A DNA stretch of 64,000 nt from a virus. A program made the translations under genes and the position numbers. Of the stretch, positions 10,225 to 59,780 are shown piece by piece (position 1 is the first letter of the stretch; each line of letters starts with the position of its first letter). The notes under the pieces are model-generated. The model saw only the letters and a program-made list of their open reading frames with translations, was not told the origin of the DNA and searched no databases. The stretch covers positions 1 through 64,000 of IMG/VR virus record IMGVR_UViG_3300042350_003685, one strand, 5' to 3'.

Positions 10225-10225
10225 A

Positions 10226-11840: not shown

Positions 11841-11843
11841 TTT

Positions 11844-14800
11844 ATGTCTACAGCAAGAAAAATTTTTACATACACAAATGGGCGTCAAGTTTTTGTGATG
11901 CCAGATGGATATGAACGACAGGTCAGCTATCATATGTGGGCCGGCGGAGGTGGTGCTGGTGGCGACAGCGGCGCATTCACTGGCGGCAATGGAGCAGCAG
12001 GTACCTATCTTACAGGCAGTTTCAATGCTGATCCTGGTGACAGAATAGAAGTCATAGTGGGTGGTGGTGGTCAAGAGGGTCGTAGTCTTGATGCAAACAA
12101 AAAACTCTACAGTTGTACTATTGAAGGCACTGGCGCCAGTGGAGTTGGTCCCACTGCGAGTTATGGTTTTGTAAACGATCCTACCAAGGCCATTTATCCT
12201 AGATACAATGATCCTTTGGCCACTCGAACCTTTGATCGGTGGAACGCTTTTATGAACGCCTGGGCAGTGAGTAACCTGCCCTCAAATCGACCTGGCACAG
12301 AAGAAGTAACAAACAATATCTACTTTCCAGAAGCAGGTCAATACAAACTTCAGATTGCCGCAGATAACACTGTGACCTGGAGTTTTGGCAATTTTACAAC
12401 CACAACAAAAGATAATTTTGCCAACGGTCCATTTGAACGCACAATCAGTGTGCCAGAGCCCGGTGTATATGAGTTAAGATACACGCTGACCAACGCTAGC
12501 AGTAGCAGTGGCAATCCAGCGGGTTGTGCTATATTGATCACTAGAAATAATCCAGCCTATATGGGTGGGGGTAATGTTATAACCTACCCAGGTGGTGCGT
12601 CAATGAAAAATGTGATTTGGTCAACTAGATTTGGACCCAACGTTGATGTCACAGATCAAGTGCCACTGCTGTATGCCCCTGTGGTTGATTTTTATCGTCC
12701 ACAATCGTCATATAACTGGGCCGGAGTACCAGAAGTAGGTCTGTGCTTTATCAGCGACAACAGCACTTGGACCGAAGCAGAACTAAACAGACTCAATCTC
12801 AATTTCAACAAAGTAATATCTTTAAGTTATCCTGTGACTATCACTGGCAATGGTAATATTGATCAGGTGTGTGCCACAGGATACTACACGTTCAAAAGAG
12901 GACAGACCTGGGAGTTGTCACGTTACAACTGGATAGGCAATCCTACCAATAACAACAACATGCAGGGGCGCGGCACTGGTACTCCAAGCAATTGGACAGA
13001 ACGTCAATGGTACAATGACAATGCTTCTGGACGTAGCCGTAACAAAGAATTTGCCAAATGGCAACTGCCTGTACCTCCAGCAGATACCCTGTATATTGTA
13101 GGCTACGCTGATGGTGTGATCTATAATGCTCCTAGTCAAAGAGGCAGCGACAATCTAACCTGGACTGTAAACAGCACTGTGAGTCAGTTTTATGCAGGCG
13201 GTGCTGGTGGAAAATCTGCCACTAATGAAAGTGACAAAAAATACAATTACTATGGCGGTTACGGTGGGCAGATTGGTACCAATCAAACCTCAGGTGGCGG
13301 TGGAGGCGGTGGTGGGTCATCTTATATTGCAGTGTCAAAAGCCACACAAACCACTATTCCCAACCCCGACAACGATCGTTTATTAGCCAATTGGTACAAC
13401 GATATACAGCCACCTGTATGGTATAACGAACTTGGCAAACCCAGTGGAGTGAATCTAACCGTGGGTGCTGGTGCTTCTGCGGCAATCATGCCAGGAAGAA
13501 GTCCTCAACTACGCAGTTTATTGGTCAATGGCACAACCACAAGCAATGCGTCATGTGCCAGCCTTGGCGACCTTAATATCAGCGGTCTTGATGCCAACAA
13601 CAAACCAAAACCGTTTACCATAGAAGCCTGGGTACGTGCAACAGGTCCAGGTGTCAATCCTGGTGGTTTTGGTGGTGAAATAATCAACAAAGACTATGAG
13701 TATGAGATAGCCAGAATGGCCAATGGCAGAATTATATTTGCCGTGGACTGGGGTCAAGGTATCAACAATTCTTATCCTGGCAGCGGATGGATATTCACAA
13801 ACTATTTCTTGCCACAGGATACCAGTGCTTTGATCTCCATGGTATTCTTTGACAATGATACTATTTTATATGTTGATGCAGTGAAAAAATGGCAAGCATC
13901 TGTGGATGGCTTTAGTTCAAGTGGTACTGGTGCTATCAATTCCTTTAGTGTGCCAAGATACAAACCTAGATTTACTAGCTACAAACTGTTTATTGGCAGT
14001 AGAACAGATCTCAACCAAAACTGGCAAGGGTACCTTGGTGATGTAAGACTCTGGAGAGAAGCAAGAACACAACAGCAGATCTACGACAACATGTTTGGTA
14101 TAAGCTTCACACGCACTGCTGTGACATATCAAAAAAGTCGAGTGGGTGTGGCCATTGCTGGTGGCGGTGGAGGCGGTGGTGGTGCTGGCTTCAAAGGTGA
14201 CGGCGGCGATGGCAACAATGATTACTTGATTGCTCCTCAACCAAATCCAAATTCCATAGGCGCCGGTGGTGTGGGTGCTAGTGCATTCAACAGTGGCGGT
14301 GGTGGTGGCGGTGGAGGTGGTGGCTGTGACGGAGCCATAGGTGGCAAAGCAGCGACCTCCGGCACAGGATCAGGAGGCGACGGCGGCTACACAGGTGGTT
14401 CACAGGTAGTAACTGTGAACTTGAACCCTCCCACTGCTGACTTTGTCATGGTAGGACGAGGTGGTGATGGTGGCAATGGTGGTGGCGGTGGAGCAGGCGG
14501 TCTCAGCACCGGACAAATACAGCTACGCAAATATCAGTACATTCAGGTAGGTGGAACCGATGATGCCAAGATTGAAGGCGGCGCATCAGCCATATGGTTT
14601 GATGAAAGAACCTACTGGGCAGTGGGGCCAGGTGGACGCGGTGGTTACATCAACTCACCATGGGCCAAAAATGGCAACGGACAGAATGGCGGATGTCTTC
14701 AAGACAATACTAATACAAATAAATTCAATGGCAGCGGCGGAGGTGCTGGTACAGGATCAACCAAGGCCACAGCATCTGGTGGAAGCAGCAAGGGACACCC

Positions 14801-17231
14801 CCCTGGAGTCAACCCCGCTATCCGAGTTACAACTTTTCAAGGAGGTGGTGGTAATAGTGCAGGAGCACCAAGCTGGAGTCCAGGTGGCGGTGGTGGAGCT
14901 GGCGGTAATGGAGCAGCTGGCACTGCTGGATCAGTGGGCGGTACCGGCGCTCGTGGTGGCAACGGAGGTCCTGGCAAAACAGTTGCGCTGGGCAACACAG
15001 GAAGAACATATACTCTAGCTGGCGGTGGTGGTGGTGCCGCTGGATACTACCAACCTGGTCCATTTGTGGGCTATGGACAAGCAGGCGGTGGCGATGGCGC
15101 CTCGGGTACCGGTCCAGAAATTGAATTCACAAGAGCACAACTTTACACTATCTGGGTACCCACTGGTGTGACCACAATGTACTTTGAGGGAGTTGGTGCT
15201 GGTGGTGGTGGCGGTGGTGGTTCAACTCGCGGCTCTGGTGGCGGTGGCAGTGGTGCATATTTGACAAAAACTGCTTATTCTGTAACTGCTGGACAACAGA
15301 TTGATATCACAGTTGGGCCAGGCGGCGCCAGCAATGCAACAGGTGGCAACACAATAATAAGATTCTATGCCAAGGATTCAATACCTGCTTCAACAGTGAC
15401 CTTGGGTGGCGGCTTTCCTGGAACATCCACTGGTAACACACCATTGGGCGGCAAAGGAGGAGCACCCAATGGACAAACAGGTGATAGTGGTGGTCAAGGC
15501 GACAGTCCCAATTTCAGTAGCGGATCAGGAGCATCATCTCCCTATGGTGAAGGTGGTGGTGGTATCACAGTAACATCCAACGCCAAGCCCGGTGCAGGCG
15601 GACGTGGTGCTGGTGGCGGCGGCGGCAGCAACAAAGTTGCTGGTGGTCGAGGCGGCGACGGTTATGTTTTAGCCACTTGGTCGGGCAACTATTCAATAGA
15701 CGCACAGCCTAACACAGGCAGTGGTGGCGGTGGCGGGTTTGATGGTGGTGGTGGATCAGGTGGTACAGGTTTTGTGGCTATTGCTTATCCAGGCGCTCCC
15801 ATCTACACCTACATAGTTGGCGGACGACCCGTGCCACCCATACAACAGAATGGCTACACTATTCACGAATGCCGTCAAAGCGGTGAGCTGGTGTTCCAAC
15901 CAGATGTTCCAGAAGGCAAATTATATCGTGGCAGCGGAGTAACTCCTGCTGGCACTGACTACCCATACTATGTTCAAGGTGTGGCCTATGGAGGAGTTGG
16001 TCGTGACAACACCGACGTATTCCCAGTTAGAAGCAGCAACTACACTGACTTCTTGAACAATTATGGCGTTTGGAATCAAAGCCCAACGTCATCAAGTTTT
16101 GACCGTACCTACAGTTTTTACATCGCAAAAGAAGCCAGCTATCAATTCCAAGCAGCAGCTGACAATGGAGCTCAGGTATTTGTTGACGGAGGCATAGTGA
16201 TTGACATGACTCCTGCTAATCGAGACAACGGAACCTACTGGCAACGCAATGGTCTAACAGCCACTAAAAAACTGGGTGTGGGCATGCACACTCTTAAAAT
16301 ATCAGCTACCAATCTAAATCTACAAGGTGCTTTTGCTTTGACCATCACAGAAGTTGGCACTCAAAACATGGTGTTCAACTCAAGACGTCCACCAGTGCCC
16401 AGTGGCAGTCCACAGGGTGGTGATGGACTGATTATTTTAGAGTTCAAAGGCGGTGAAGGCACTGCAAAGGTCAAGGTCAATAACGCTTGGAAACAGATCA
16501 TAGGTCAGTGGGTAAAGATTGACGGTGTGTGGAAACGTATCGCCGGCAGTGCAGTCAAGGTCAACGGAGTATGGAGATCACTGTTTGGCTCTGTGCCTAT
16601 TTCAGTAACAGTTGATCCCAATAACTTTGGTGGACCTCCAGCACCTGGCATACCAACTGCACCCCCTCCTCCCAGCAGTGGAGGTGGAGGCGGTGGTGGT
16701 GGATGTAAGATTATCTGCAACAAGTTGGCTGAAATGGGCTTCTTTGATCCCGAAATGAACGACGCAGATCAAAGATTTGGTATGCTGTTAAGAGACACTG
16801 ATCCAGATGCCTACAATGGTTATCTACGTTGGGCAGGGCCAGTGGTTGATCTACTGGAAGGTGGCGGTAGTGCTACGTTTAGAAAGATTGTATTCCCGTG
16901 GTTGAGGGATGAACAGGCTCGACGTGACCTACAGATCAAAATTGTAGCTCACTATCTAGACGGTATAGCAAGACCCTGGGCAGAAGAAATGGCATATAGA
17001 ATGAAAGCCCGCGGATATGAAAAGTCCAACCCTGCAGGTAGGTTCATTATGAATGTTGGTTTGCCAATGTGTAGAATCATAGCCAAATTTGGCCGCGGCA
17101 AGTCTATGCCAATGTGGGCCAAGACAGCGGTGATTTGGGGCACAACAACTGTGCTGCTGTGTATCATTACAGTGATATCCGGCACCGACAACATAATTAA
17201 GCGTATCAAGAAATTTTTGAAACGAGACTGA
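11844..17231 (+). CDS. Giant glycine-rich adhesin with LamG-like and PA14-like domains and C-terminal membrane helix
   Basis: 1795 residues, the largest gene in the window. The N-terminus (MWAGGGGAGGDSG...) and residues about 770-1330 are glycine-rich, of the kind found in phage receptor-binding tips. Residues about 590-750 form a LamG/concanavalin-like domain (FTIEAWVRATG...LYVDAV...GYLGDVRLWREARTQQQI). Residues about 1410-1510 look PA14-like (YSFYIAKEASYQFQAAADNG...FVDG). Short KINGVWK/KVNGVWR repeats at about 1540-1580 precede a proline-rich linker. The last 165 residues are a separate helical domain (CKIICNKLAEMGFFDPEM...) ending in a hydrophobic helix (TAVIWGTTTVLLCIITVI) and a basic tail. 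It follows the 10629 fibre by 3 bases. The role is host recognition by inference. Confidence 0.75.
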   Translation: MSTARKIFTYTNGRQVFVMPDGYERQVSYHMWAGGGGAGGDSGAFTGGNGAAGTYLTGSFNADPGDRIEVIVGGGGQEGRSLDANKKLYSCTIEGTGASGVGPTASYGFVNDPTKAIYPRYNDPLATRTFDRWNAFMNAWAVSNLPSNRPGTEEVTNNIYFPEAGQYKLQIAADNTVTWSFGNFTTTTKDNFANGPFERTISVPEPGVYELRYTLTNASSSSGNPAGCAILITRNNPAYMGGGNVITYPGGASMKNVIWSTRFGPNVDVTDQVPLLYAPVVDFYRPQSSYNWAGVPEVGLCFISDNSTWTEAELNRLNLNFNKVISLSYPVTITGNGNIDQVCATGYYTFKRGQTWELSRYNWIGNPTNNNNMQGRGTGTPSNWTERQWYNDNASGRSRNKEFAKWQLPVPPADTLYIVGYADGVIYNAPSQRGSDNLTWTVNSTVSQFYAGGAGGKSATNESDKKYNYYGGYGGQIGTNQTSGGGGGGGGSSYIAVSKATQTTIPNPDNDRLLANWYNDIQPPVWYNELGKPSGVNLTVGAGASAAIMPGRSPQLRSLLVNGTTTSNASCASLGDLNISGLDANNKPKPFTIEAWVRATGPGVNPGGFGGEIINKDYEYEIARMANGRIIFAVDWGQGINNSYPGSGWIFTNYFLPQDTSALISMVFFDNDTILYVDAVKKWQASVDGFSSSGTGAINSFSVPRYKPRFTSYKLFIGSRTDLNQNWQGYLGDVRLWREARTQQQIYDNMFGISFTRTAVTYQKSRVGVAIAGGGGGGGGAGFKGDGGDGNNDYLIAPQPNPNSIGAGGVGASAFNSGGGGGGGGGGCDGAIGGKAATSGTGSGGDGGYTGGSQVVTVNLNPPTADFVMVGRGGDGGNGGGGGAGGLSTGQIQLRKYQYIQVGGTDDAKIEGGASAIWFDERTYWAVGPGGRGGYINSPWAKNGNGQNGGCLQDNTNTNKFNGSGGGAGTGSTKATASGGSSKGHPPGVNPAIRVTTFQGGGGNSAGAPSWSPGGGGGAGGNGAAGTAGSVGGTGARGGNGGPGKTVALGNTGRTYTLAGGGGGAAGYYQPGPFVGYGQAGGGDGASGTGPEIEFTRAQLYTIWVPTGVTTMYFEGVGAGGGGGGGSTRGSGGGGSGAYLTKTAYSVTAGQQIDITVGPGGASNATGGNTIIRFYAKDSIPASTVTLGGGFPGTSTGNTPLGGKGGAPNGQTGDSGGQGDSPNFSSGSGASSPYGEGGGGITVTSNAKPGAGGRGAGGGGGSNKVAGGRGGDGYVLATWSGNYSIDAQPNTGSGGGGGFDGGGGSGGTGFVAIAYPGAPIYTYIVGGRPVPPIQQNGYTIHECRQSGELVFQPDVPEGKLYRGSGVTPAGTDYPYYVQGVAYGGVGRDNTDVFPVRSSNYTDFLNNYGVWNQSPTSSSFDRTYSFYIAKEASYQFQAAADNGAQVFVDGGIVIDMTPANRDNGTYWQRNGLTATKKLGVGMHTLKISATNLNLQGAFALTITEVGTQNMVFNSRRPPVPSGSPQGGDGLIILEFKGGEGTAKVKVNNAWKQIIGQWVKIDGVWKRIAGSAVKVNGVWRSLFGSVPISVTVDPNNFGGPPAPGIPTAPPPPSSGGGGGGGGCKIICNKLAEMGFFDPEMNDADQRFGMLLRDTDPDAYNGYLRWAGPVVDLLEGGGSATFRKIVFPWLRDEQARRDLQIKIVAHYLDGIARPWAEEMAYRMKARGYEKSNPAGRFIMNVGLPMCRIIAKFGRGKSMPMWAKTAVIWGTTTVLLCIITVISGTDNIIKRIKKFLKRD

Positions 17232-17232
17232 A

Positions 17233-17646
17233 ATGGGAATCAGTATACAGGAGTTTTTGGCAGGCCGTGAGCCTTGTGCAGTATGCGAAGAGTCAGGTGA
17301 TCAACATCATTGCATCACTGAACTACTGAGTAGAGTTGACAGTTGTATACTCTACAATGCCATGGGTCTGAATCAAACATCAGAAATACTCAATGACACC
17401 GCGTTGCTGCAAGAGTTGAGATCGGTTTCGAACCCCACTCAGGTATTAGATTATTACATACGAAGTCAAGCTATTACAACGGACATCAACTCTAGGCCCA
17501 ATCGTGAAGACATTTGGAATCACATTTATAATCAGTACATTCCACCTATCTTGACCCTGTTACGCGATAGACAGCGCGAAGCCACAATGAATGCCATCAT
17601 GGCACTGGTCACAGAACTAGAACGCAGCTACGGTGTTAAACATTAA
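17233..17646 (+). CDS. Unknown protein with N-terminal Cys/His cluster
   Basis: 137 residues, starting 1 base after the adhesin gene, so it belongs to the fibre operon. The N-terminus has [13 protein letters not shown], which could bind a metal, followed by a mostly helical chain. I do not recognise the family. A fibre chaperone or assembly factor is possible from position alone. Its stop overlaps the convergent ErpA-like gene by 11 bases. Confidence 0.6.
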
Positions 17647-17959
17647 AGCTTGAACCACAGCCACAGGTGGTAGTGGCGTTGGGATTTTTGATTGTGAAGC
17701 TGGATCCATGAATGTCTTCAACATAGTCAATGTTGGCGCCCTGAAGATACTGAGCACTCATTGAGTCTACCAAGAACTTGATGCCTTGAATGTCTAGATC
17801 CCAGTCATCTTCGTTTTGAACTTCATCAAAAGTAAATCCATATTGAAATCCAGAGCAACCACCGCCTTGTACAAACACACGTAGTTTGAGATCTGGATTG
17901 CCTTCTTCTTGAATTAATTCACGTACTTTTTGCACACAGTTTTCAGTTACATTCAACAT
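17636..17959 (-). CDS. erpA: ErpA/IscA-type iron-sulfur cluster carrier
   Basis: 107 residues, full length for A-type carriers. The three cluster-binding cysteines are present: C35 in [11 protein letters not shown] and C99/C101 in the terminal TCGCGSSF. The stretch [20 protein letters not shown] and the ending [14 protein letters not shown] are closer to bacterial ErpA than to IscA. Known members deliver Fe-S or iron to apo-proteins; in a phage this may support host or phage Fe-S enzymes such as the radical SAM protein at 48321. AAGGAG precedes the ATG, which overlaps the end of the upstream glycosyltransferase-like gene. Confidence 0.92.
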
Positions 17960-18816
17960 ATATTTTTACTCCTTATGATTTCCAGGGCCTGGTTAATTGC
18001 ATCAAAATCTACATCACAATGATCACTAAACAAACCAGGCTGTCCTTTTATCTGCCCTCGTATGCCGCGATCACACACAGCGTTGTATTGTGTATTTAAA
18101 TCGTTTAGTGTGTCAAGACTATTGAACACAAATCTGTTTTGTATCATGGTTTTTCCTGACCTAAGATACCTATACCAGTTGCCTAGGAGTTCATATTCAC
18201 TAAACCAACGTATCATGCGATGTTGACCAAATGGCTCAAGTGGCACATGATCAATGATGCAGGTCCAATCCTGTTGGATGGTTTGTCTGATACGCTCTCG
18301 ACACTGATACCAATCAGACGCCAACACAGGCATGAATTCAGTAACAAAGCTTGCTGTGGTCTGTCTCTTGATACCTAGCACGTTTTCAAGTGTTTGGTAA
18401 TATCCCTGATAATGATACTGTTCGGGCAGCACAAAATGACACAATTGACCTTGATCATAGTATTGATACTCAGCTATCAAGAAGGTGTCAGGATCTTGAA
18501 TCAAAAAAACTTGACTTTGGATACTGTCCAGTGCTGCTAGCTTTAGAGCCTGTTGCTTCAGCCAACCAGCTCTGAAATTTTTTGGATCTTGCCATTTTGC
18601 TATGCCAGGATATTGAACAATCAAATCATCATCTGCTATTACCACAAAGTTCAACGCAGGAAAGCTATGTGATATCGTATCGGTAACTGCCTGGACAGGC
18701 AAAGGAGTTATGATAACTGTGCAGTTGGGTCTGGGATCAAGCAAATGATCATGATGTAGTGACAATATCAAATTGCCCAATCTCTGTGGGCCAACTGTTA
18801 TGATCCTGGTGATCAC
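17953..18816 (-). CDS. DUF6492-like putative glycosyltransferase
   Basis: 287 residues starting with GTG in a GTGA overlap with the SOD stop. It opens with a beta strand of Rossmann type ([12 protein letters not shown]), has a DxD-like motif ([10 protein letters not shown]) at about residue 107, and later [14 protein letters not shown] and [12 protein letters not shown], which fit the DUF6492 group of glycosyltransferase-like proteins. The substrate is unknown; surface sugar or virion modification is possible. Fold-level confidence is moderate, and the specific family name is from memory of motif patterns. Confidence 0.5.
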
Positions 18817-19373
18817 AGTCGATCGCTGATCACGTCCCAGTTTATGATACGCCAGATATTGTCAAGATAGCGTTGCTTGTCGCTTTGGTAATCCAGTGCC
18901 CAGGCATGCTCCCACCAGTCTACTAGCAATGCGATATCCGTGCGGACTTGGTGGTTGGGAATAGTTTTGATTTCGCCCTGAGTGGAGAGATATATCCAAC
19001 CCGAGCCCTGTATAGCCATTGCTTTTTCCGTGAATTGATCTTTGAAATCTTCATAGGTTTTAAATTTTTCTTCTATCAGCGTGGCCACTGCACCGCGGGG
19101 ACGGTTGGCTGCTTTTGGCTCTCGGAATTGAGGGAAGAATCGATTATGTAGAAAACTACCAGCACGATTAAAATTAGCATTACCTTCACCGGCGTTATAT
19201 CGTTTTGCATATCCCTTGGCCAAGTTTTCATAATGATAATCAAGAGTCTCTGCACTCATCACAGGCTCAAGATCACGTACACCATAAGGCAACGGTGTAG
19301 TCTCTAGTTTAGCAGGTCTAGTGCTTGCTTCCAGCAGGTCTAGCGTTTGTCTTAAATGCGGCAAGGTGTCCAT
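18813..19373 (-). CDS. Iron/manganese superoxide dismutase family protein
   Basis: 186 residues. Disproportionation of superoxide is the family role. The four metal ligands can be placed: H47 (LDYHYENL), H76 (AGSFLHNRFF), D152 and H156 (VDWWEHAW), and GSGWIYL is conserved. There is an extra N-terminal stretch of about 20 residues, the segment between the first two histidines is about 17 residues shorter than in E. coli SodB, and the gateway histidine after YHY is leucine (L51). The usual active-site Gln/His position reads NHQ (histidine). The metal site therefore looks intact but the access channel is altered. A GATAAATA box lies just upstream. Confidence 0.85.
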   Translation of the reverse strand: MDTLPHLRQTLDLLEASTRPAKLETTPLPYGVRDLEPVMSAETLDYHYENLAKGYAKRYNAGEGNANFNRAGSFLHNRFFPQFREPKAANRPRGAVATLIEEKFKTYEDFKDQFTEKAMAIQGSGWIYLSTQGEIKTIPNHQVRTDIALLVDWWEHAWALDYQSDKQRYLDNIWRIINWDVISDRL

Positions 19374-21508: not shown

Positions 21509-21537
21509 ATTATAGCATATCCAAAATTTGTGGTCAA
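21509..21537 (-). promoter_or_regulatory. Sigma70-type phage promoter
   Basis: Minus strand: -35 TTGACC (21532-21537), 17-base spacer, -10 TATAAT (21509-21514). The TGA stop of the upstream gene (21534-21536) lies inside the -35 box. Drives the 21476 gene. Confidence 0.8.
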
Positions 21538-33150: not shown

Positions 33151-33227
33151 TGGTGGGCCGGGAGAGATTCGAACTCTCTATCCCCCGATTATGAGTCGGA
33201 CGCATATACCTAATATGCTTCCGGCCC
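33151..33227 (-). tRNA. tRNA with CAU anticodon (elongator Met or Ile2)
   Basis: 77 bases with encoded CCA. Acceptor stem GGGCCGG/CCGGCCC, D-stem GCAT/ATGC, anticodon stem TCCGA/TCGGG with loop CTCATAA (anticodon CAT), T-stem GAGAG/CTCTC with TTCGAAT loop. The G1-C72 pair excludes an initiator. Whether C34 becomes lysidine (Ile) or stays (Met) cannot be told. It is embedded in the leftward small-gene operon. Confidence 0.93.
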
Positions 33228-33484
33228 TAACTCCATTTAAGAGCAAACAGTGTGGCAATGGTTGGATTTTTAAAATACACCGACCAGTTGCTGATTATGT
33301 AGTCTATTTTAACACTTTGTCCATGATCGTTCAACCAGTAATGGACATCATCCAAATTGTATGGTTCAATACTCATGCGCATGGGCACAACATGCACAAA
33401 GCCCTGCTCGGCCAATCTCACTGGATAAGGCCTGCTTAATGGATTGCTGTGATCAAGTCGGCTAGATTTGGTCACTAGTTCCAC
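33227..33484 (-). CDS. Member of tandem small-gene family, copy 6
   Basis: 85 residues ending in the family signature FKNPTIATLFALKWS. GTG start at 33484; a second GTG at 33475, overlapping the upstream stop, is also possible. Its stop abuts the tRNA. VHYWLNDHGQSVKIDYI resembles the central part of the other members. Unknown function. Confidence 0.6.
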   Translation of the reverse strand: MELVTKSSRLDHSNPLSRPYPVRLAEQGFVHVVPMRMSIEPYNLDDVHYWLNDHGQSVKIDYIISNWSVYFKNPTIATLFALKWS

Positions 33485-33789
33485 ATTATAGCAATATGAC
33501 TCGCATAGATTGCGTATTTTTTACGCATGCGAATTGTCAAACGATTTTCTGCTGCATCATTATTGGCCATGTACCACTGCCAGTCTGGTCCTTGGCGGCC
33601 TATCCATTGTTCCATGAACGGACGATAGTGATCATTTGGATCTGCACTGGGCACTTCAACACGTCTAGCACCAACATCATACCACCTTGGATCCGCGTAT
33701 CCCACCGCTATAGGACCCGAAGGCCATTTTACATTGACTTCGATCCAGGGAACAAAGAACCACCATATTTTTTCTAACTTACTTAACAT
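33475..33789 (-). CDS. Tandem small-gene family, copy 5 (diverged)
   Basis: 104 residues from the ATG at 33789, placed in the AGGTGGTCATG junction at the end of copy 4. It has two extra aromatic segments (IWWFFVPWIEV; WIGRQGPDWQWYMANND), and the C-terminus YASHIAIMWN is a diverged form of the LRWS signature. Confidence 0.6.
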   Translation of the reverse strand: MLSKLEKIWWFFVPWIEVNVKWPSGPIAVGYADPRWYDVGARRVEVPSADPNDHYRPFMEQWIGRQGPDWQWYMANNDAAENRLTIRMRKKYAIYASHIAIMWN

Positions 33790-34085
33790 GACCACCTCAA
33801 CAACCACCAAGTCATTTCTTGCCGATCACTGAATCCCCACCACTCTTCTTTGTCACTGGCGCTGTAACAGGACATACCACTGGCACAATTCCGTCTACAC
33901 CATGCCCAAAACTTGGTTTTGGTTTCATTAGCGATAGATACTCTAATTGGAGATACTGACACAAACCACTGACAGCGAATTCCTGAGCTGTGCTCATAGG
34001 CCCATAGACCACTGCCGGGGTCTCCCAGCCCGGGCTTTACTGCGTTCCAATGTTTGATAAATTGTTCGCGATCTAATACTGTCAC
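33783..34085 (-). CDS. Tandem small-gene family, copy 4
   Basis: 100 residues from GTG at 34085, coupled to the upstream stop. FWAWCRRNCASG and EWWGFSDRQEMTWWLLRWSC show the family pattern (W-C-R in the middle, aromatic-x-x-x-E-x-x-x-x-LLRWS at the end). Confidence 0.6.
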   Translation of the reverse strand: MTVLDREQFIKHWNAVKPGLGDPGSGLWAYEHSSGIRCQWFVSVSPIRVSIANETKTKFWAWCRRNCASGMSCYSASDKEEWWGFSDRQEMTWWLLRWSC

Positions 34086-34351
34086 GACCACCTCAATGCA
34101 AACTCCATGGCATCAAGCGAATGCCTAAAGTGCCATTTCACTGCAAACTGCCAGTTGTCAAGATCCAACTCATTGGTATCAAATTCTTCATGCCATGCTG
34201 CATCGTTTCTATTTTGAGGCTGCAATCGGCCTATGCCGTAACGATTGGCTAGATACTCCCAGGCTTCAACATATGAACCATAGTCGCGAAAACGACTTAT
34301 CACAAGGTAAGGATATTGACGTCTAAGTCGTCTACGTTGTCTGGCGTTCAC
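34082..34351 (-). CDS. Tandem small-gene family, copy 3
   Basis: 89 residues from GTG at 34351. Ends WHFRHSLDAMEFALRWS. The coding end contains both the ribosome site and the start of copy 4 (junction TTGAGGTGGTCGTGA). Confidence 0.6.
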   Translation of the reverse strand: MNARQRRRLRRQYPYLVISRFRDYGSYVEAWEYLANRYGIGRLQPQNRNDAAWHEEFDTNELDLDNWQFAVKWHFRHSLDAMEFALRWS

Positions 34352-34530
34352 GACCACCTCAACAAGTATAACAGATAATCTGATTGATTACGAAAACAAA
34401 CATAGCCACGATTACGCCACCATGGCCGTCCCGGAGCGTAGCCAGTGTCTTCGCTTGTGTGGCCAAAAGTTTTCTTGCACCACTCAATTCTGGCGTATGC
34501 TTCTGGCATCTTGGCTCGATAATAGGTCAT
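34348..34530 (-). CDS. Tandem small-gene family, copy 2
   Basis: 60 residues from ATG at 34530 (ATGA overlap). Ends VCFRNQSDYLLYLLRWS. It is the shortest copy. Confidence 0.6.
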   Translation of the reverse strand: MTYYRAKMPEAYARIEWCKKTFGHTSEDTGYAPGRPWWRNRGYVCFRNQSDYLLYLLRWS

Positions 34531-34745
34531 GACCACTTCAACAAAAACACAGCGATTTCTTTTTCATTACGAAAACGAAACTGATCAAATGAAGTTCGAA
34601 CACCACAATTATTTTCTCTACACCAGGCGGCCACAGGCTCTAGGTGTTCATCGCGTAGTCCAGTGGGGGTCACAGCGCCATGATCATAGGCCATTCTAGC
34701 ACACAGATAGAACGGACGCGAGTGTCTTTCCCAAACTAATTTCAC
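34527..34745 (-). CDS. Tandem small-gene family, copy 1
   Basis: 72 residues, GTG start in a GTGA overlap with the upstream gene. Contains VAAWCRENNCGVRTSFDQF and ends FRNEKEIAVFLLKWS, the clearest version of the family signature (F-R-N/D-E/S-x-E/D-x-x-x-F-L-x-W-S). Confidence 0.65.
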   Translation of the reverse strand: MKLVWERHSRPFYLCARMAYDHGAVTPTGLRDEHLEPVAAWCRENNCGVRTSFDQFRFRNEKEIAVFLLKWS

Positions 34746-36455: not shown

Positions 36456-37631
36456 CTATAGCAACACAGTGTGCCGCCAATAATCGCTGGCCGCTGCTAC
36501 CCCGCTGCCTGGTTCCACATTGATGCCACAGTCCTGCATGGCCATTTCTGCACCCGAGATCGCTGCCATGAGATGTATTTCATTCATGTCACCCAGGTGC
36601 CCAATGCGGAATAGCTTGCCAGCGACCTTGCTCAACCCTGCTCCCAGTGACAGATTGTACCTGGTATAGGCTCTGCGGATCACATCTGCCCCGTTGATGC
36701 CTTCGGGTACCATGATTGCAGACACAGTGTTGGAGTACCACTCTGGAGATCGAGCGCAGAGCTCTAGACCCCATCCCTTTTGAACAGCAGCCCGAACACC
36801 TTCGGCAAGGAAAGCATGGCGACGAATAATGTTATCCAGGCCTTCTTCGTCTATCATCTTTAGCGACTCAATCAAGCCATACAACAAACTCAGTGCTGGT
36901 GTGTAAGGATAATATCCGGTGCTGTTGCTGTTAAGCATATCGTTTAGATCAAAATATGCTCGCTTGAGTTTGGCAGTATGGCGTAGTTCCAATGCCTTTG
37001 GGCTAGCACACAGGATGCCTAGACCAGCTGGCAGCATAAGACCTTTTTGTGATCCTGATACTGCCATGTCCACACCCCATTGATCGAATCTTAGGTCAAT
37101 TGACGCCAGACTACTCACACAGTCCACAAACAGTAGAGCAGGGTGGTTGGTGCTAGCCAATGCGTTTCTAACCGCAGCCACATCTGATGTAACACCAGTG
37201 GCAGTTTCATTATGGCATACTAGCACTGCCTTATAGGCGTGTGTGGTGTCGGCCGCTAGTCGTTGTTGATATGTGTCAACAGGAACACCAGTACCCCATT
37301 CACAATCTACTACATCTACTTCTAGCCCAAGTCGGACGCACATGTCAATCCAGAGATGACTGAATTGACCAAATCTAGCGGCCAGCACTCGATCACCCGG
37401 GCTTAGTGTGTTTGTTATGGCTGCTTCCCAACAGCCGGTGCCTGAACTGGGAAACACAAATGGTGTGCCTAATTCAGTCTTGAACACTCGTTTGAGTCCG
37501 GTAGTGATTTGATGAGTAATACTAGGGAAGTCGGGCGATCTATGGTCCTCCATTGATACAACCATAGCCCGTTGTACGCGATCAGGAACGTTGGTAGGTC
37601 CAGGTACAAATAAAAAGTTACGTCCAGCCAT
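36456..37631 (-). CDS. sgaA: Serine-glyoxylate aminotransferase (class V, PLP)
   Basis: 391 residues from ATG at 37631 (GAAAGGA upstream). It follows the methylotroph enzyme almost motif by motif: RNFLFVPGPTNVPDRVQRAM, EDHRSPDFPSITHQ, RFGQFSHLWIDM, CHNETATGVTSD, the PLP lysine K196 in SGSQKGLMLPAGLG, GYYPYTPALSLLYGL, and RYNLSLGAGLSKVAGKLFRI. The reaction is serine + glyoxylate to hydroxypyruvate + glycine. The length and the C-terminal GSGVAAASDYWR are complete, so it looks functional. It has its own promoter at 37710. A phage copy may feed one-carbon and glycine pools or remove glyoxylate. Confidence 0.93.
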   Translation of the reverse strand: MAGRNFLFVPGPTNVPDRVQRAMVVSMEDHRSPDFPSITHQITTGLKRVFKTELGTPFVFPSSGTGCWEAAITNTLSPGDRVLAARFGQFSHLWIDMCVRLGLEVDVVDCEWGTGVPVDTYQQRLAADTTHAYKAVLVCHNETATGVTSDVAAVRNALASTNHPALLFVDCVSSLASIDLRFDQWGVDMAVSGSQKGLMLPAGLGILCASPKALELRHTAKLKRAYFDLNDMLNSNSTGYYPYTPALSLLYGLIESLKMIDEEGLDNIIRRHAFLAEGVRAAVQKGWGLELCARSPEWYSNTVSAIMVPEGINGADVIRRAYTRYNLSLGAGLSKVAGKLFRIGHLGDMNEIHLMAAISGAEMAMQDCGINVEPGSGVAAASDYWRHTVLL

Positions 37632-37709
37632 GTTTTTTCCTTTCAAAAAAAGGCCAGTACATGGCTGGTTTGTTTTTATAGGTCGTCCTATACCATGTTA
37701 GGTTAGGCA

Positions 37710-37738
37710 ATTATACACAGAGTCTTGACGTAAGTCAA
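37710..37738 (-). promoter_or_regulatory. Sigma70-type promoter of the aminotransferase gene
   Basis: Minus strand: -35 TTGACT (37733-37738), 17-base spacer, -10 TATAAT (37710-37715). Confidence 0.78.
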
Positions 37739-37754
37739 GGTCTAGGGTTGCCTT

Positions 37755-38450
37755 TTACCATGCATCAGGCCAAGCTGCCACTCTGTTCAAACTGGTAAAA
37801 TTAGTTACCATTTTTTTAGCAGCTTCGCTGAAGCCACGCTTGTGATAGTATATTTGCGCCAGTTCTGTGATCGCTTCTAGATCGGATCTTTCACCAACAC
37901 TGGCTATCGTGGCCACAGTCAAGGGTCTGCCACGCAGAGAAGCAAAACCAAAGTCCCAAAAGTTTTGAATGATTTCTCGTCTGTTGGTTATTTTCTTACC
38001 AGACTTCACACTGTATACACCTTGGTGTTTGGCAAGAGCAAAACATCTCTTCCAAGTCAACAGTTGAGTCACAGCGCCCTGACTGCTGCGTTCAGAATAT
38101 GGCCTCAAACGACTGATGCCCTTGTGATCGCCCCACTCTTCAAATTCTTCTCGCCACTCATCAGAATATAGATTTTTAGCAATTGATACCACGTCAGTGG
38201 TAGCAGCACCCAAAAACTGTATCTTGTGGTCGGTAAAAACCACATAGCTTTGTTGAAATTTTTCGCCTAATTTCAGTAGATTGTCAAGGTTCTCCGAACT
38301 TTCGCGGTTTGCCTGTTGACCAAGAGTAAACACAGTGAGCTGATCTGCTTCACGATTGTTTTGCCTACTCCATCCATATCGATCACGTTTGCCCACTGCC
38401 AATCTATAATTGGCTTGATTCACTGCATAGATGGTTTGATATTGCAACAT
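37755..38450 (-). CDS. Unknown protein
   Basis: 231 residues from ATG at 38450 with GGGAGTC upstream. It begins with beta strands (MLQYQTIYAVNQANYRLAVG), has GRPLTVATIASVGERSDLEA in its second half and a C-terminal helix (RGFSEAAKKMVTNF). I do not recognise it. Has its own promoter. Confidence 0.6.
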   Translation of the reverse strand: MLQYQTIYAVNQANYRLAVGKRDRYGWSRQNNREADQLTVFTLGQQANRESSENLDNLLKLGEKFQQSYVVFTDHKIQFLGAATTDVVSIAKNLYSDEWREEFEEWGDHKGISRLRPYSERSSQGAVTQLLTWKRCFALAKHQGVYSVKSGKKITNRREIIQNFWDFGFASLRGRPLTVATIASVGERSDLEAITELAQIYYHKRGFSEAAKKMVTNFTSLNRVAAWPDAW

Positions 38451-38478
38451 AAAGACTCCCGACAATGGCGTTCAGATC

Positions 38479-38695: not shown

Positions 38696-38719
38696 ATTAA
38701 AAAGCCCCTTTTCGGGGCT
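38696..38719 (-). terminator. Rho-independent terminator
   Basis: Minus strand AAGCCCC-GAAA-GGGGCTT followed by TTTAA. It overlaps the stop of the cytochrome c gene and ends the rubrerythrin-to-cytochrome operon. Confidence 0.88.
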
Positions 38720-39000
38720 TATTTTACTAGGCTCAAAATCCAGTTGGTCAGTATACGAATCTCTTCATCGGTAAGCGTGGGATGAGCAGGCATTTTTCCT
38801 TTGCCATTTCTTATCACGTTTTTCACATGCTCAGGATCGTCTTTGTGTTTTTCTGCCACACGTGTCAGAGCAGGTGGGTAACTGATACCAATATGTTCAA
38901 TGCTATGACAGCCCAAACATGCTGATTTTTTAGCTAGTGATTCAGCCTCATTGGCTAGTACAGAACTGCTGAACAACATTAAAATTACAACGTACTTCAT
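38719..39000 (-). CDS. Small periplasmic c-type cytochrome
   Basis: 93 residues: signal peptide (MKYVVILMLFSSSVLANEA), one haem site CLGCH at about residues 28-32 and the axial methionine in GKGKMPAHPTLTDEEIRILT. Mature size is about 75 residues, like class I cytochromes c551/c553. It would carry electrons in the periplasm and needs the host Ccm haem-attachment system. It is the last gene of the rubrerythrin-DUF3501-SGNH-cytochrome operon and overlaps the SGNH gene by 4 bases. Confidence 0.92.
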   Translation of the reverse strand: MKYVVILMLFSSSVLANEAESLAKKSACLGCHSIEHIGISYPPALTRVAEKHKDDPEHVKNVIRNGKGKMPAHPTLTDEEIRILTNWILSLVK

Positions 39001-39392
39001 TTGGTTAGTATTCCCAACTGTCTATATCCACGACTGGTAGGATGCACTCGATCAGGTGCAAGTTCTGGTATTGTTATAAACGTATCACCAAACTGTTTGG
39101 CTATTTTTTTCACTAGATCTTGCTTGTCTGATTTCACTGCTGGCACTATCCAGAACACCTGATCCGCTGCTACGTGAGTTCTCAATGCTATGAGTTCTAC
39201 TTCGGTGTTAAGACTTTTGTAGTCATTGCTGCCCAGACTGATAATTGTGGTCCGGGCAGGCTTGACCTTTTTAATATAGATATTGTTCCAGTCTCGACTG
39301 TTTATGCCACTCTGTGCAAGAGTCACACATTCAGTCCTAACTTGACCAATGCCTTTGGCAATGCTATCACCTACTATCAAACAATCTAACAC
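38997..39392 (-). CDS. SGNH/GDSL-type hydrolase
   Basis: 131 residues. Block I is LIVGDSIAKGIG (Ser 9), block III is IISLGSNDYKS, and block V is LAPDRVHPTSRGYRQL with D and H. No signal peptide is apparent. Family members remove acyl or acetyl groups from sugars, lipids or proteins. A TATAAATA box 60 bases upstream could give late expression together with cytochrome c. Confidence 0.75.
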   Translation of the reverse strand: MLDCLIVGDSIAKGIGQVRTECVTLAQSGINSRDWNNIYIKKVKPARTTIISLGSNDYKSLNTEVELIALRTHVAADQVFWIVPAVKSDKQDLVKKIAKQFGDTFITIPELAPDRVHPTSRGYRQLGILTK

Positions 39393-39404
39393 ACAGTCCC
39401 CTGA

Positions 39405-40007
39405 TCAGGATAAAGCCAGTCTTGGTTGATCAGCAAAGTCTGCGATCAAGCTATTTATAGTGCTCAAAGGCACAGGAGTGCTGTGCAGATAGTTTTCATG
39501 ATCAACACCCACAGTCAACCCAGTGGTCTGGTTCTGTAGAGCAGTGATCATGTCTGCTGTGAGCTCAAAACGCAGAAAGTGTACAGCCGAAGTCTTAACA
39601 TCGTTGCTGCGATCAAGATCTTCGTCAGCCACTGCATACACAGGCTGGTGTCCTTCTACCTGCAGGAACACACGATCCTCGATACCACGCAACAGCGCCA
39701 GCTGGTAAGCTCTCACTGTTGGGTCGCTATACTCAATGGTCATAGTGGCCTTGAGGTTTGAGCCTGTGGGAATCAAGGGATTGTAAGCATCAAGTTCATC
39801 TTGTATGCCTTGTTGACTGAAAGTGCGCTCGATCAACAGCATCTCTTGAATTTGGTATTGTACAGTGACGCGATCCTCAAAATGCAGAGTGACGTTTGCC
39901 CCCAGCTGAAGCTGCCTTTGCTTACGATGTTGCACTGCCCGGAGTTTGAATTCCGGGCGGCGAGCACTATACTGTTCTAACGAATATAGGTCTTGTGAGG
40001 TAAGCAT
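39405..40007 (-). CDS. DUF3501 protein
   Basis: 200 residues, full length. RRPEFKLRAVQHRKQRQLQL, LHFEDRVTVQYQIQEMLLIE, ELDAYNPLIPTGSNLKAT and ADEDLDRSNDVKTSAVHFLR are clear DUF3501 motifs. In bacteria this family sits beside rubrerythrin and an Fe-S (heterodisulfide reductase-like) gene, and its biochemical role is not known. Here it follows rubrerythrin by one base, but the Fe-S gene is missing. Confidence 0.9.
   Translation of the reverse strand: MLTSQDLYSLEQYSARRPEFKLRAVQHRKQRQLQLGANVTLHFEDRVTVQYQIQEMLLIERTFSQQGIQDELDAYNPLIPTGSNLKATMTIEYSDPTVRAYQLALLRGIEDRVFLQVEGHQPVYAVADEDLDRSNDVKTSAVHFLRFELTADMITALQNQTTGLTVGVDHENYLHSTPVPLSTINSLIADFADQPRLALS
39452..39459 (-). promoter_or_regulatory. Perfect TATAAATA late-promoter-like box
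   Basis: TATAAATA on the minus strand inside the 3' part of the DUF3501 gene, about 60 bases before the SGNH start. It is identical to the T4 late promoter -10. It may be chance within coding sequence. Confidence 0.4.
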
Positions 40008-40008
40008 T

Positions 40009-40443
40009 TTAGGCGTTCTCTGAACGATATGCGTCTAGGGTTTTCTTGAACTTGCCAGCATGGCTACGTTCTGCTTTGGCCAAGGTATCAAACCAGTCAG
40101 CGATTTCATCAAAGCCTTCGTCACGTGCATCACGTGCCATGCCTGGGTACATGTCTGTGTACTCGTGCGTTTCGCCATGGATAGCACTTTCTAGAGCTTG
40201 CACAATGTCACCAGCTGGCAGGCCAGTTTCTGGATCACCTGAACCACCTGCGATCAAGTATTCCATGTGACCATGCGCATGACCTGTTTCACCCTCTGCG
40301 GTGTGACGGAAGATGTTGGCTACGTCAGTGGCACCTGCGATGTCAGCCATGTTTGCGAAATACAGATAGCGACGGTTAGCTTTGGATTCGCCTGCAAATG
40401 CATCCTTTAGATGCTGTTCGGTTTTGGTTCCTGTTACTTTCAT
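40009..40443 (-). CDS. Rubrerythrin (diiron domain only)
   Basis: 144 residues from ATG at 40443 with AGGAGAAATC upstream. Four-helix diiron pattern: [56 protein letters not shown] and [17 protein letters not shown], with the E and E-x-x-H ligands. No C-terminal rubredoxin (CxxC) domain. Members reduce hydrogen peroxide. First gene of the four-gene redox operon. Confidence 0.92.
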
Positions 40444-40477
40444 TTGATTTCTCCTGTAAAAAAAATGTTGCATTGCA

Positions 40478-43909: not shown

Positions 43910-44188
43910 TTAACTCCATTTCATTGTGAAACCCAATCTGTCGGTGTCGCTGTCAAAATAAAAAATATAACGACCCGGATGAGTTTGAGTAGCACTTTCT
44001 ACCATTTGCCAACGCCAGTCGTCTTTGGTTTGTTCTCTGCACCAAGACAACGCCATGTCTAATCGACCAAAAGGCAGCTGGACTTCTATTGCATAATTGA
44101 ATCCACGACCTCGACGAGTGTGATCATTGAATCCCCAATGCCATGGATCATCAGTTGGCCAAAGACTATGTTTCCAGGTATGTGTCAC
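43910..44188 (-). CDS. Distant member of the LRWS small-gene family
   Basis: 92 residues, GTG start. Ends YFDSDTDRLGFTMKWS and has MALSWCREQTKDDW in the middle, as in the tandem array at 33227-34745 about 9 kb away. Unknown function. Confidence 0.6.
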   Translation of the reverse strand: MTHTWKHSLWPTDDPWHWGFNDHTRRGRGFNYAIEVQLPFGRLDMALSWCREQTKDDWRWQMVESATQTHPGRYIFYFDSDTDRLGFTMKWS

Positions 44189-48320: not shown

Positions 48321-49505
48321 ATGCGATGTCAATTCTTAAAACACGGGCTGGCCATTGACTACAATAGGCTGCTGCGCCCTTGCTGTAGCTTCCACGGCGA
48401 TCAGACCTGGCGTGATCAAAACCAATTACACCAAACGGATCTTGTGACCTGGCACTCTAATCCACAGTTGTTGAAATTGCAACAACAGATGTCGCAGGAT
48501 ATATGGCCTTTGGAGTGTGGTGTGTGCCAAGATATCGAAAGCCAAGGACGCGGTGACAGCATGCGTCTCAATGCGGAAAGCGCCTATGCTCACTATCAAG
48601 AACAGGATATAACACTTGAGATACGTCCAGGTAATGTGTGTAACTTTGCCTGTCAGACCTGCTGGCCCGAAGCCAGCTCCAGAGTCACTGACTTTTATCG
48701 CAAGGCTAATATTGAAACCACAACAGACTGGACCTCAGGTGACTCTAATACCATTCAGATTGCACAGGCTAAACACACTCTTGACCTTGATCGCATTGCC
48801 GCTGTGTTGCCTCGTGTGCGTGACATTGTGATACTAGGTGGCGAACCATTCTATGACCCTGAATGCAAAAGATTTCTAGCTTGGTTGGTTGACAATCACT
48901 GTGATGCAAACTTATTGATCTTTACCAATGGCAGTTGTGTAGATCGCACCATGCTTGAACATTATCCAGGCAAGGTAACCTTGATATTCAGTCTTGATGC
49001 CATGGGTGAAGCAGCAGAGTACATACGATATGGCACTGTTTGGCAGGATGTTGTGGAAAACTATGTTCATTGCCGTGGTCTTGAAAATGTACGCACTAGA
49101 GTCAACGTCACTGTGAGCACCTATAACTTTCACCTGGTAGGATCACTGCTTGAGTGGTTGGCTGAGGATTGGCCTGAAGTAGTAAGCTTTGGCATTGCCA
49201 GCACTGTGAACAATACCTGGTTCATGGATGAAAGTGTGCTGCCCTTAATGAGTCGAGCCTGGGTAGTAGAACAACTGCTCAACAGCCGCAACTTTTTAGA
49301 ACATGCCAATATCGAACACTATCAACGACTCAATGCTCAGAATGCTCTAAGTGCTATCATGGACCGACTGCAACACATGCCATTTGACACAATCAAATTC
49401 TACCGCTTTGTGGAGTTTGTGCGAGCCATGGATCGTGTGAAACACACTGACTTTGCAAGGAGCATGCCTGTACTAGCTGACATGCTAGGATACAAGCTGC
49501 TCTAG
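48321..49505 (+). CDS. Twitch-domain radical SAM protein
   Basis: 394 residues. The radical SAM cluster is C-x3-C-x2-C in GNVCNFACQTCWPEAS, followed by VILGGEPFYDPE. An N-terminal half-SPASM (twitch) cysteine set is seen in RPCCSFHG and LECGVCQDIE, so auxiliary Fe-S is likely. Homologues are common in T4-like phages; substrate unknown. The only gene on the plus strand in this stretch; TATAAGTA at 48309 is a weak late-promoter candidate. It converges on the asparagine-synthetase-like gene with a 21-base overlap. Confidence 0.85.
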   Translation: MRCQFLKHGLAIDYNRLLRPCCSFHGDQTWRDQNQLHQTDLVTWHSNPQLLKLQQQMSQDIWPLECGVCQDIESQGRGDSMRLNAESAYAHYQEQDITLEIRPGNVCNFACQTCWPEASSRVTDFYRKANIETTTDWTSGDSNTIQIAQAKHTLDLDRIAAVLPRVRDIVILGGEPFYDPECKRFLAWLVDNHCDANLLIFTNGSCVDRTMLEHYPGKVTLIFSLDAMGEAAEYIRYGTVWQDVVENYVHCRGLENVRTRVNVTVSTYNFHLVGSLLEWLAEDWPEVVSFGIASTVNNTWFMDESVLPLMSRAWVVEQLLNSRNFLEHANIEHYQRLNAQNALSAIMDRLQHMPFDTIKFYRFVEFVRAMDRVKHTDFARSMPVLADMLGYKLL

Positions 49506-58058: not shown

Positions 58059-58343
58059 TCACAGCGTGCCTTGTTTCACGATTTCGCGTTGTACACTGCG
58101 CCTTGCAATGAAGTCATTGGCTAATTGTTCGGTATCAAATCTTTCTTCCATGCGCCATGTATCTGGATTTCCTGGCATGGCTGCGTACTCAAACCAAACC
58201 TCCCAGTGTGTTTCGCTTAGTGAATTTGTTTCTTTTACAATTTTGTAACGTCTAGGTCTACTGCCTCTCATGGTAAATGCTGCCATGACCAACAATAGCC
58301 CAGGCAGCACCAAAAAGTAAAATAGGTCTTGTAGCCAGTCCAT
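58059..58343 (-). CDS. Small membrane protein
   Basis: 94 residues: N-terminal helix (LFYFLVLPGLLLVMAAF) and a soluble beta-rich tail (RRYKIVKETNSLSETHWEVW). TAATG overlap with UvsE. Unknown function. Confidence 0.55.
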   Translation of the reverse strand: MDWLQDLFYFLVLPGLLLVMAAFTMRGSRPRRYKIVKETNSLSETHWEVWFEYAAMPGNPDTWRMEERFDTEQLANDFIARRSVQREIVKQGTL

Positions 58344-59368
58344 TATATCAAAGCTAAAAGTTGATCACGAGCTAGATTTTTACCCTTGGCTTCGCACTGT
58401 ATGTCAAAGTTTTCAGCAAAACTCAAAGCCCATTCGTTACATGCGTGATTCCAGTAGAAATCGCTGTGAGCCCTGAGCTTTTGTTTGTTAAAACCTCGAT
58501 TAATAAGCGAATCAAGATCGGGTCGTACTCTGCTATCATGATCCAGCAAAAGATCTTCGCGGCTAACACTGTAGTGAAGAGCAGGGCGCACACCACGCCA
58601 AGACTCAATAACCCGCATGACATCAGCGTCTTGCGGATCGATGTATTCACCGGTCTTAATCCAGTTATGGTGAATGTCCAAAACAACAGCGCAATGCTCA
58701 GCCAAGTTAAGAACACTATCGAGGCCATTTCCAATTTCATCATTCTCTATGGTTATGAGGTTGCGAGCCTCGGTTGACAAGCGACCTAGTGTTCTAACAA
58801 ACTTTTCAGCGCCGCCGCGCCCACTAAGATGTATGTTGATTTTAAATCCATGATCATGCCATGCTGCACCATAGCCCATCCAACGGGCCATGTCTACGTG
58901 ATATTCAAACTCATCAATGCTACGCTCAACGATGTTATCATTGTCACTTGCAAGAACGCAATACTGGCCAGGATGAAAAGACAACCGTACGTCAAGGGCA
59001 CGAGCCAACCGTCCCACTTCTGCAAAATGTGTTTCGGCGTAAGCTCTAACATCCGGTTCACGATAAAACCAGCTCCAATCAGGCTGAGTATACATGGGAA
59101 GAATATCACTCCCAATACGTACCATATGACATCGTTCATCTAGTGCTCCAACTCTTTCAACTAAAAGTCTTGTGGATTCAATATTGAATTTTACCAAACT
59201 CCACAGTTTTTCCACAGCTACATCGCGAGGCTGACGATTAAGCCAGGCCACAGTGGTTGTACGAGTGTTATGGTCAGTGGCTGCAACCCGCTTGCCTGCG
59301 ACCTCTGCGGGATCGGTTAGCCATTTGCAACAAAAACCGGTACGCCGAAGAGTTTTAGATGTAGTCAT
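58343..59368 (-). CDS. uvsE: UV damage endonuclease UvsE/UvdE
   Basis: 341 residues from the ATG at 59368. TIM-barrel motifs: RTGFCCKW, VRIGSDILPMYTQ, LSFHPGQYCVL, HVDMARWMGYGAAWHDHGFK, INIHLSGRGG, ITIENDE, VLDIHHNW and HYSVSR. It nicks DNA 5' of UV photoproducts and some abasic sites. Phage copies repair UV damage in sunlit water. Overlaps the cyclotransferase-like gene by 14 bases. Confidence 0.93.
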   Translation of the reverse strand: MTTSKTLRRTGFCCKWLTDPAEVAGKRVAATDHNTRTTTVAWLNRQPRDVAVEKLWSLVKFNIESTRLLVERVGALDERCHMVRIGSDILPMYTQPDWSWFYREPDVRAYAETHFAEVGRLARALDVRLSFHPGQYCVLASDNDNIVERSIDEFEYHVDMARWMGYGAAWHDHGFKINIHLSGRGGAEKFVRTLGRLSTEARNLITIENDEIGNGLDSVLNLAEHCAVVLDIHHNWIKTGEYIDPQDADVMRVIESWRGVRPALHYSVSREDLLLDHDSRVRPDLDSLINRGFNKQKLRAHSDFYWNHACNEWALSFAENFDIQCEAKGKNLARDQLLALI

Positions 59369-59780
59369 AACGTGATTGTACACTAGTTATCAAATATTGT
59401 GTTAAACTTTGGTTCCATTGATCTTCGGTTATGCCACAGTGCTCATATCCTTGTTGAATACCCTGTATGTAACCAGAGCTAGGATAACCAGTTACTGGTC
59501 CTGCGATTTCGTAGAAAAAGAAATGTTCATTGTCTTGACGCCAGCGACGTCGTGTATAGTATGTGGGATAGCCTTCATAGCGATCAAGTGCGTCAAAGTC
59601 TTTGGGTGTGACCAACCAAAGAGCACCTGGTACCACTGCGCCGCGACGTGGTAAGATTGTGGCGTGATTTCCAAAGGCCAGTTCCCAACCACGCAGATCA
59701 AGTCTTTTTACAAATCTAGCAGTTGGGCATCGCCAACTCATTTGTTCATGATTTAGATTGCTGCCATAGGCAAAATACAA
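59355..59780 (-). CDS. Gamma-glutamylcyclotransferase-like (AIG2) protein
   Basis: 141 residues from a TTG at 59780; the open frame continues upstream, but that part overlaps the amidinotransferase gene in another frame. LYFAYGSNLNHEQMSWRCP is the family start; the later ALDRYEGYPTYYTRR carries the catalytic-type glutamate. Family acts on gamma-glutamyl peptides. Confidence 0.8.
   Translation of the reverse strand: MYFAYGSNLNHEQMSWRCPTARFVKRLDLRGWELAFGNHATILPRRGAVVPGALWLVTPKDFDALDRYEGYPTYYTRRRWRQDNEHFFFYEIAGPVTGYPSSGYIQGIQQGYEHCGITEDQWNQSLTQYLITSVQSRYDYI

Follow-up and report, generated by a model that had tools for sequence, protein, structure and literature searches.

The window analysed here, a 64,000-nucleotide stretch of a 68,316-base IMG/VR virus record from a freshwater-type phage, carries on its minus strand a gene (positions 36456–37631) for a class V PLP aminotransferase of the serine-glyoxylate type. 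It is probably an auxiliary metabolic gene, which would encode a functional serine:glyoxylate aminotransferase (SGAT) and would have been taken from freshwater-type Burkholderiales, with later spread between phages. The parts of this explanation that can be read directly from the DNA are an intact enzyme, a place in the SgaA clade, a promoter of its own, purifying selection, transfer between phages and a location in a variable island.

Enzyme, active site and metabolic setting

The open frame spans positions 36456–37646 of the minus strand. Translation most plausibly begins at the ATG at 37631, which has GAAAGGAAAAAAC upstream, and yields a protein of 391 amino acids without internal stops. 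The protein matches Pfam family Aminotran_5 (2.6e-23) and, in the PDB, the photorespiratory SGAT of Arabidopsis, AGT1 (6pk1, 1.8e-142). It has the class V fold and is similar over its full length to this characterised enzyme, with 54–55% sequence identity (6PK1/6PK3). The AlphaFold model, of moderate quality with a pLDDT of 67, served to judge the fold alone; its best match among solved structures is again 6PK1, with a TM score of about 0.85.

The cofactor and substrate residues of 6PK1 were taken as listed in PMC6797613, with a numbering offset of five between the plant and phage proteins. All of them are retained or conservatively replaced in the phage protein, apart from Tyr35. Those retained are P10, G11, R31, G64, T65, W68, F90, T143, D170, V172, Q195, K196, T244 and R342, with S63 as a conservative replacement of plant T68; K196, D170, T143, Q195, T244, R342 and R31 cover the catalytic lysine, the PLP contacts, the carboxylate-binding arginine and the second-subunit arginine close to the serine hydroxyl. 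The single clear change in the active site is from plant Tyr35 to His30, a residue that is invariant across 14 aligned phage and bacterial proteins. Careful alignment of these proteins with 6PK1 thus found the PLP-site residues kept, bearing out the first-pass annotation, which had stated that all catalytic motifs are retained.

In cellular relatives, glyA is located upstream of the aminotransferase gene in L020, L021, L022 and L048, fhs (formate-THF ligase) downstream in L020, L048 and L049, and a glycerate kinase gene nearby in L049. In Methylibium (L034), genes for a 2-hydroxyacid dehydrogenase, an MtdA-type protein (Mpt_N) and FchA follow directly downstream. Some of these neighbours were recognised from the sequence, and one example per type was confirmed by HMM. 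GlcD-like proteins are present in five relative genomes, each of them under the glcD cut-off, and PQQ alcohol dehydrogenases over the cut-off in four. The glyA, fhs and serine-cycle neighbours, together with the GlcD-like and PQQ genes, therefore support an SGAT acting in glycolate or one-carbon assimilation, and the neighbours and genomes of the nearest cellular copies make a host with glyoxylate and serine metabolism plausible.

No other serine-cycle or one-carbon enzyme was seen in the window phage, and SHMT was found in none of 14 related phage records, most of which are fragments; both count against the metabolic role proposed below. In its favour, thymidylate synthase occurs in three of the 14 records searched, and the copies in G021 and G022 are located about 6 kb from the aminotransferase. 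A phage 2-hydroxyacid dehydrogenase was considered and discarded, with one weak match over the cut-off (G005) and a sub-threshold match within the window's own NDP-sugar dehydrogenase.

In infected cells, expression from its own promoter would supply the enzyme, which would convert glyoxylate and L-serine to glycine and hydroxypyruvate and thereby draw host glyoxylate, whether it stems from glycolate or from the assimilation of one-carbon compounds, towards glycine. Together with host SHMT and hydroxypyruvate reductase, this could yield one-carbon units and glycerate, which may support purine and thymidylate synthesis for phage DNA, with removal of glyoxylate. That the enzyme serves nucleotide supply is a guess based on the logic of the pathway; control of one-carbon flow by the virus, at which the first-pass annotation had hinted, is something we infer. 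Class V aminotransferases are often promiscuous, and this, with the histidine in place of Tyr35 in the phage protein, as in its bacterial relatives, counts against the preferred reading.

A less probable alternative, which nevertheless keeps a real share of our belief, is a cargo gene that chiefly serves glyoxylate detoxification or amino-group balance, by transamination of serine, alanine or asparagine, rather than nucleotide or one-carbon supply. Its chemistry would be identical, stress-type genes are present in the island (rubrerythrin and cytochrome c) with a superoxide dismutase (SOD) gene nearby, and the plant homologue is multifunctional, AGT1 accepting alanine and asparagine too (PMC6797613). 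The synteny of the cellular copies argues in the other direction, favouring folate and serine-cycle genes.

Phylogeny and spread among phages

The best NCBIfam model for the protein is that of BhcA (NF045640, 597.7 bits, E 9e-180), the aspartate-glyoxylate aminotransferase of the beta-hydroxyaspartate cycle. If it were this enzyme, the phage would boost glycolate assimilation by it, and the two do belong to the same superfamily branch and have in common a His-Arg pair at the substrate position. The score, however, is below the curated cut-off of 650 bits and within the same range as that of serine-cycle and related cellular copies (583–613 bits), whereas true-positive BhcA proteins from alphaproteobacteria reach 655–758 bits. 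In a tree of 75 rows, the over-cut-off BhcA sequences form a distinct clade (100/99), with the window protein outside, and the gene neighbours of its cellular relatives are the glyA, fhs and serine-cycle genes described above. We consider the BhcA identity improbable and rejected it.

The preferred SGAT assignment agrees with the rest of the tree. Sixteen virus rows form one clade (100/99) within freshwater-type Burkholderiales sequences, and the enclosing group (100/100) contains metagenome-assembled genomes labelled as Oxalobacteraceae, Polynucleobacter and Comamonadaceae. L018 and L174/L176 branch near this clade but outside it, the placement of L018 being weak. The window copy is nested among the serine-cycle-linked SgaA proteins, apart from BhcA; both the tree and the cellular synteny place it on the side of betaproteobacterial SgaA, and the kinship with the methylotroph serine-cycle enzyme proposed earlier stands.

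Scans of IMG/VR gave 17 and then 27 virus loci with relatives of the aminotransferase. L002 and L003 contain the phage of the window itself (about 99–100%), which leaves about 25 other virus contigs, the flanking genes of which are mostly unlike those of the window. By their sequences, the relatives span at least five gene contexts or kinds of phage: the window and L014 group, with the SOD and NAD synthase backbone; the L004 group of at least ten contigs, with clamp-loader-like AAA and UvsW helicase genes; L013, with DNA polymerase B; L016/L017, with porin and phosphate-binding protein genes; and L018 and L176/L178, with VWA and metallopeptidase genes. Grouping by at least two shared flanking ORFs results in five sets as well, which unite the window, the L004 group and L014, and separate L174/L175. 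Close downstream of the aminotransferase in L017, a 220-kb virus record, genes for a phosphate-binding protein and a phosphate-selective porin-like protein are located (12254–14773, plus strand).

The window copy is nested with L004–L006 and L007 (100/91 and 100/97), which belong to another phage group. L014 has flanks nearer to those of the window phage, yet its copy groups with L011, L012, L013 and L017 and occupies a different spot in the gene order. Because the window copy nests with another phage group and the L014 copy elsewhere, the gene has moved between phages; from the tree and its position, the lineage of the window phage has probably gained it on two or more occasions. This suggests that viruses repeatedly take over glyoxylate and glycine metabolism in Burkholderiales-like hosts, the ultimate source of the gene presumably being freshwater-type Burkholderiales. 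The setting is viral: tail-fibre, UvsW, clamp-loader-like and DNA polymerase genes are found on the contigs that carry the aminotransferase, including tail-fibre-like genes in the window at 5533–17231. With cellular sister groups on one side and virus contigs on the other, the gene has the character of a host-derived gene on a virus genome.

Selection and the accessory island

Between the window copy and its nearest counterpart in a different phage (L004), dN is 0.065 and dS 0.97, a ratio of 0.067; across the 31 pairs that could be measured, the ratio has a median of 0.087. The aminotransferase is under strong purifying selection in viruses, with a dN/dS of 0.07–0.09, as would be expected of an auxiliary metabolic gene. 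A passenger gene that is decaying or transient would fit its rarity, the gene being missing from 15 searched SOD-bearing relatives (several over 300 kb, some fragments), and its location in a variable island; given the low dN/dS with many synonymous changes, the intact state of all full-length virus copies and the promoter retained in several lineages, this is very improbable, in line with the initial opinion that the gene is not a decayed passenger.

Most relatives of the window phage do not have the aminotransferase. The backbone genes that bracket it, from homologues of ORFs 41574/40569 to NAD synthase, are separated by about 17 kb in the window, by 5.3 kb in G006 and by 4.5 kb in G014; in the last two the interval contains other genes and no aminotransferase. 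The different spacing and content therefore place the aminotransferase in a variable accessory island. A synteny search with the adjoining ORF (37755–38465) was of no use, matching the same phage's copies only.

Several other genes of the window were recorded. Genes for cytochrome c, a GDSL-like protein, a DUF3501 protein and rubrerythrin form a run beside the aminotransferase (38719–40473, minus strand); an Fe/Mn superoxide dismutase gene (Fe-SOD) is located at 18813–19373 (minus strand), relatives of which were recorded in at least 598 stretches of virus DNA, many within records of 100–364 kb, and an IscA-like protein is encoded at 17636–17959. Together, the cytochrome c and rubrerythrin run, the Fe-SOD and the IscA-like protein look like a phage set directed at iron or oxidative stress. 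Several small ORFs (33227–34745 and 43910–44188, minus strand) have LKWS, LRWS or similar endings and appear to be a recurrent family of short proteins of the phage; for one of them, the L004 group has weak relatives. A tRNA-Met (cat) gene is located at 33151–33227 (minus strand), and a UvdE-type UV endonuclease and a weak match to the arginine-deiminase superfamily at 58343–59383 and 59792–60709 (minus strand). Distant relatives of a twitch-domain radical SAM protein, encoded at 48321–49505 (plus strand) and over the NF033640 cut-off, are found near the aminotransferase genes of L006, L013 and L018.

Amino-acid-derived base modifications occur in other phages, and with this radical SAM gene in the window the aminotransferase might make glycine, or some other donor, with which the bases of phage DNA would be hypermodified; we give this very little credence, as the neighbourhood of the aminotransferase showed no set of modification genes, the radical SAM protein is of the twitch-domain type with no role assigned, and the lineages differ in gene order around the aminotransferase.

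Promoter, leader and comparison with known systems

A sigma-70-like promoter, TTGACT-17-TATAAT, is located upstream of the aminotransferase at 37710–37738 (minus strand; -35 box at 37733–37738, -10 box at 37710–37715), agreeing with the consensus at 11 of 12 positions. The motif TTGAC-N18-TATAAT has eight exact sites in the window, where 0.04 would be expected, and all eight are on the minus strand. Most of the eight belong to an extended family consisting of TTGACC, an A/T-rich spacer, TATAAT and TTGGTAT. Members of the extended family were recorded at 21537, 28104, 31922, 32143, 32572, 32755, 36038, 47996 and 48300 (minus strand), and the family is also present in phage contigs L004, L007, L010, L011 and L018. 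The aminotransferase promoter has the hexamers and 17-nucleotide spacing of this family but not its spacer and downstream consensus: outside the hexamers it scores -34.7 bits, compared with a random mean of -29.6 bits and with -5.0 to 30.7 bits for family members left out singly. Of the phage-family promoter with which the first-pass annotation had credited the gene, the dedicated promoter is thus upheld and the family membership holds for the hexamers only, because the flanking bases score like random sequence.

A sigma-70-like promoter (10–12 of 12) is found at the same place upstream of the aminotransferase gene in L004–L012 and L018, and weak matches (8–9 of 12) in L013, L014 and L016/L017. 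Overlapping the -35 box, a near-perfect palindrome, CTTGACGTAAGTCAAG (37724–37739), was read from the sequence as a putative operator. Control by a T4-type late promoter was considered and dropped; TATAAATA occurs just twice in the window, with no excess over shuffles.

The leader is predicted by computation to form a start-sequestering hairpin (37624–37668, minus strand), in which CCAGCCATGT (37659–37668) would pair with ACATGGCTGG (37624–37633, containing the ATG) in a 10-bp helix, and an inner CCTTTT/GAAAGG pairing (CCUUUU/GAAAGG in the RNA) would span the Shine-Dalgarno sequence. In the predicted RNA fold, CCAGCCAUGU is paired with ACAUGGCUGG, the start codon inside, with an energy of -29.4 kcal/mol and a z-score of -6.0. 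This is the strongest start-region helix among 47 ORFs of the window, and only 3 of 5000 shuffled leaders equal it. The L004-group leader, GCTGGAC-n3-GTCCAG-n-CCAT ahead of ATGGCTGGAC, permits a 5' hairpin or, alternatively, a start-sequestering helix. Shorter versions are present in L018 and L014, and no comparable start-hiding leader was found in L009, L013, L017, L158 or L174/L176. A helix score of at least 16.5 is reached by 8 of 11 distinct aminotransferase leaders, a proportion inflated by shared ancestry; among 201 other phage starts, 3.5% reach 16.5 and 0.5% reach 19.5. In the leader alignment the start-sequestering stem is 93.9% paired in the correct register. The alternative hairpin, CUGGAC/GUCCAG, is paired in all counted cells and never varies, and there is therefore no covariation support for the leader helices. 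Rfam gave no match of the leader to a known riboswitch or RNA family.

Start-codon hiding by the leader is thus a supported prediction, and by this means the leader might tune translation. Somewhat more speculatively, the dedicated promoter and the leader complementary to the start region could form a regulated phage module, a translational switch kept or re-evolved in separate phage groups, which may answer to a protein, a metabolite or the infection phase; we put this forward tentatively. For an auxiliary metabolic gene, the spread between phage groups is unusual, and translational control of it is possible.

If active, the enzyme would be a phage-encoded step at the glyoxylate, serine and glycine branch point, gained by several phage groups and exchanged between them, and would tie phage infection to the way in which Burkholderiales-like hosts use glycolate and one-carbon compounds. 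It would also be a single-enzyme, assayable case of phages steering one-carbon supply, and the common start-codon hiding gives a testable model of how the expression of a phage metabolic gene could be controlled.

In the literature searched, which included few subscription papers, serine-glyoxylate or glyoxylate aminotransferase was never joined with auxiliary metabolic genes, and broader searches found no phage serine-glyoxylate aminotransferase. INPHARED contains just eight homologue records, all with 23–32% identity and none above 33%. In this lack of a phage precedent the SGAT is unlike known auxiliary metabolic genes; it resembles them as a host-derived enzyme that is intact, selected and located in an accessory region. 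When compared with Methylibium SgaA, of the betaproteobacterial methylotroph serine cycle, the phage protein is 69–70% identical, with the same wider clade and active-site residues. The Methylibium gene is part of a hydroxyacid dehydrogenase-mtdA-fchA cluster, whereas the phage copy is without serine-cycle neighbours, belongs to a separate virus clade, has its own promoter and does not have the 24–30-residue carboxy-terminal tail of most cellular relatives. Arabidopsis AGT1 has the PLP and substrate residues in common with the phage protein, but is peroxisomal, whereas the phage protein is of bacterial and phage type. In T4 genes e, soc, 49 and I-TevI, the start regions are hidden in RNA helices (PMC3014915). 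The aminotransferase leader is likewise predicted to sequester the Shine-Dalgarno sequence and AUG; unlike in T4, its own promoter is located upstream of the whole predicted hairpin, so that the transcript from that promoter would contain it.
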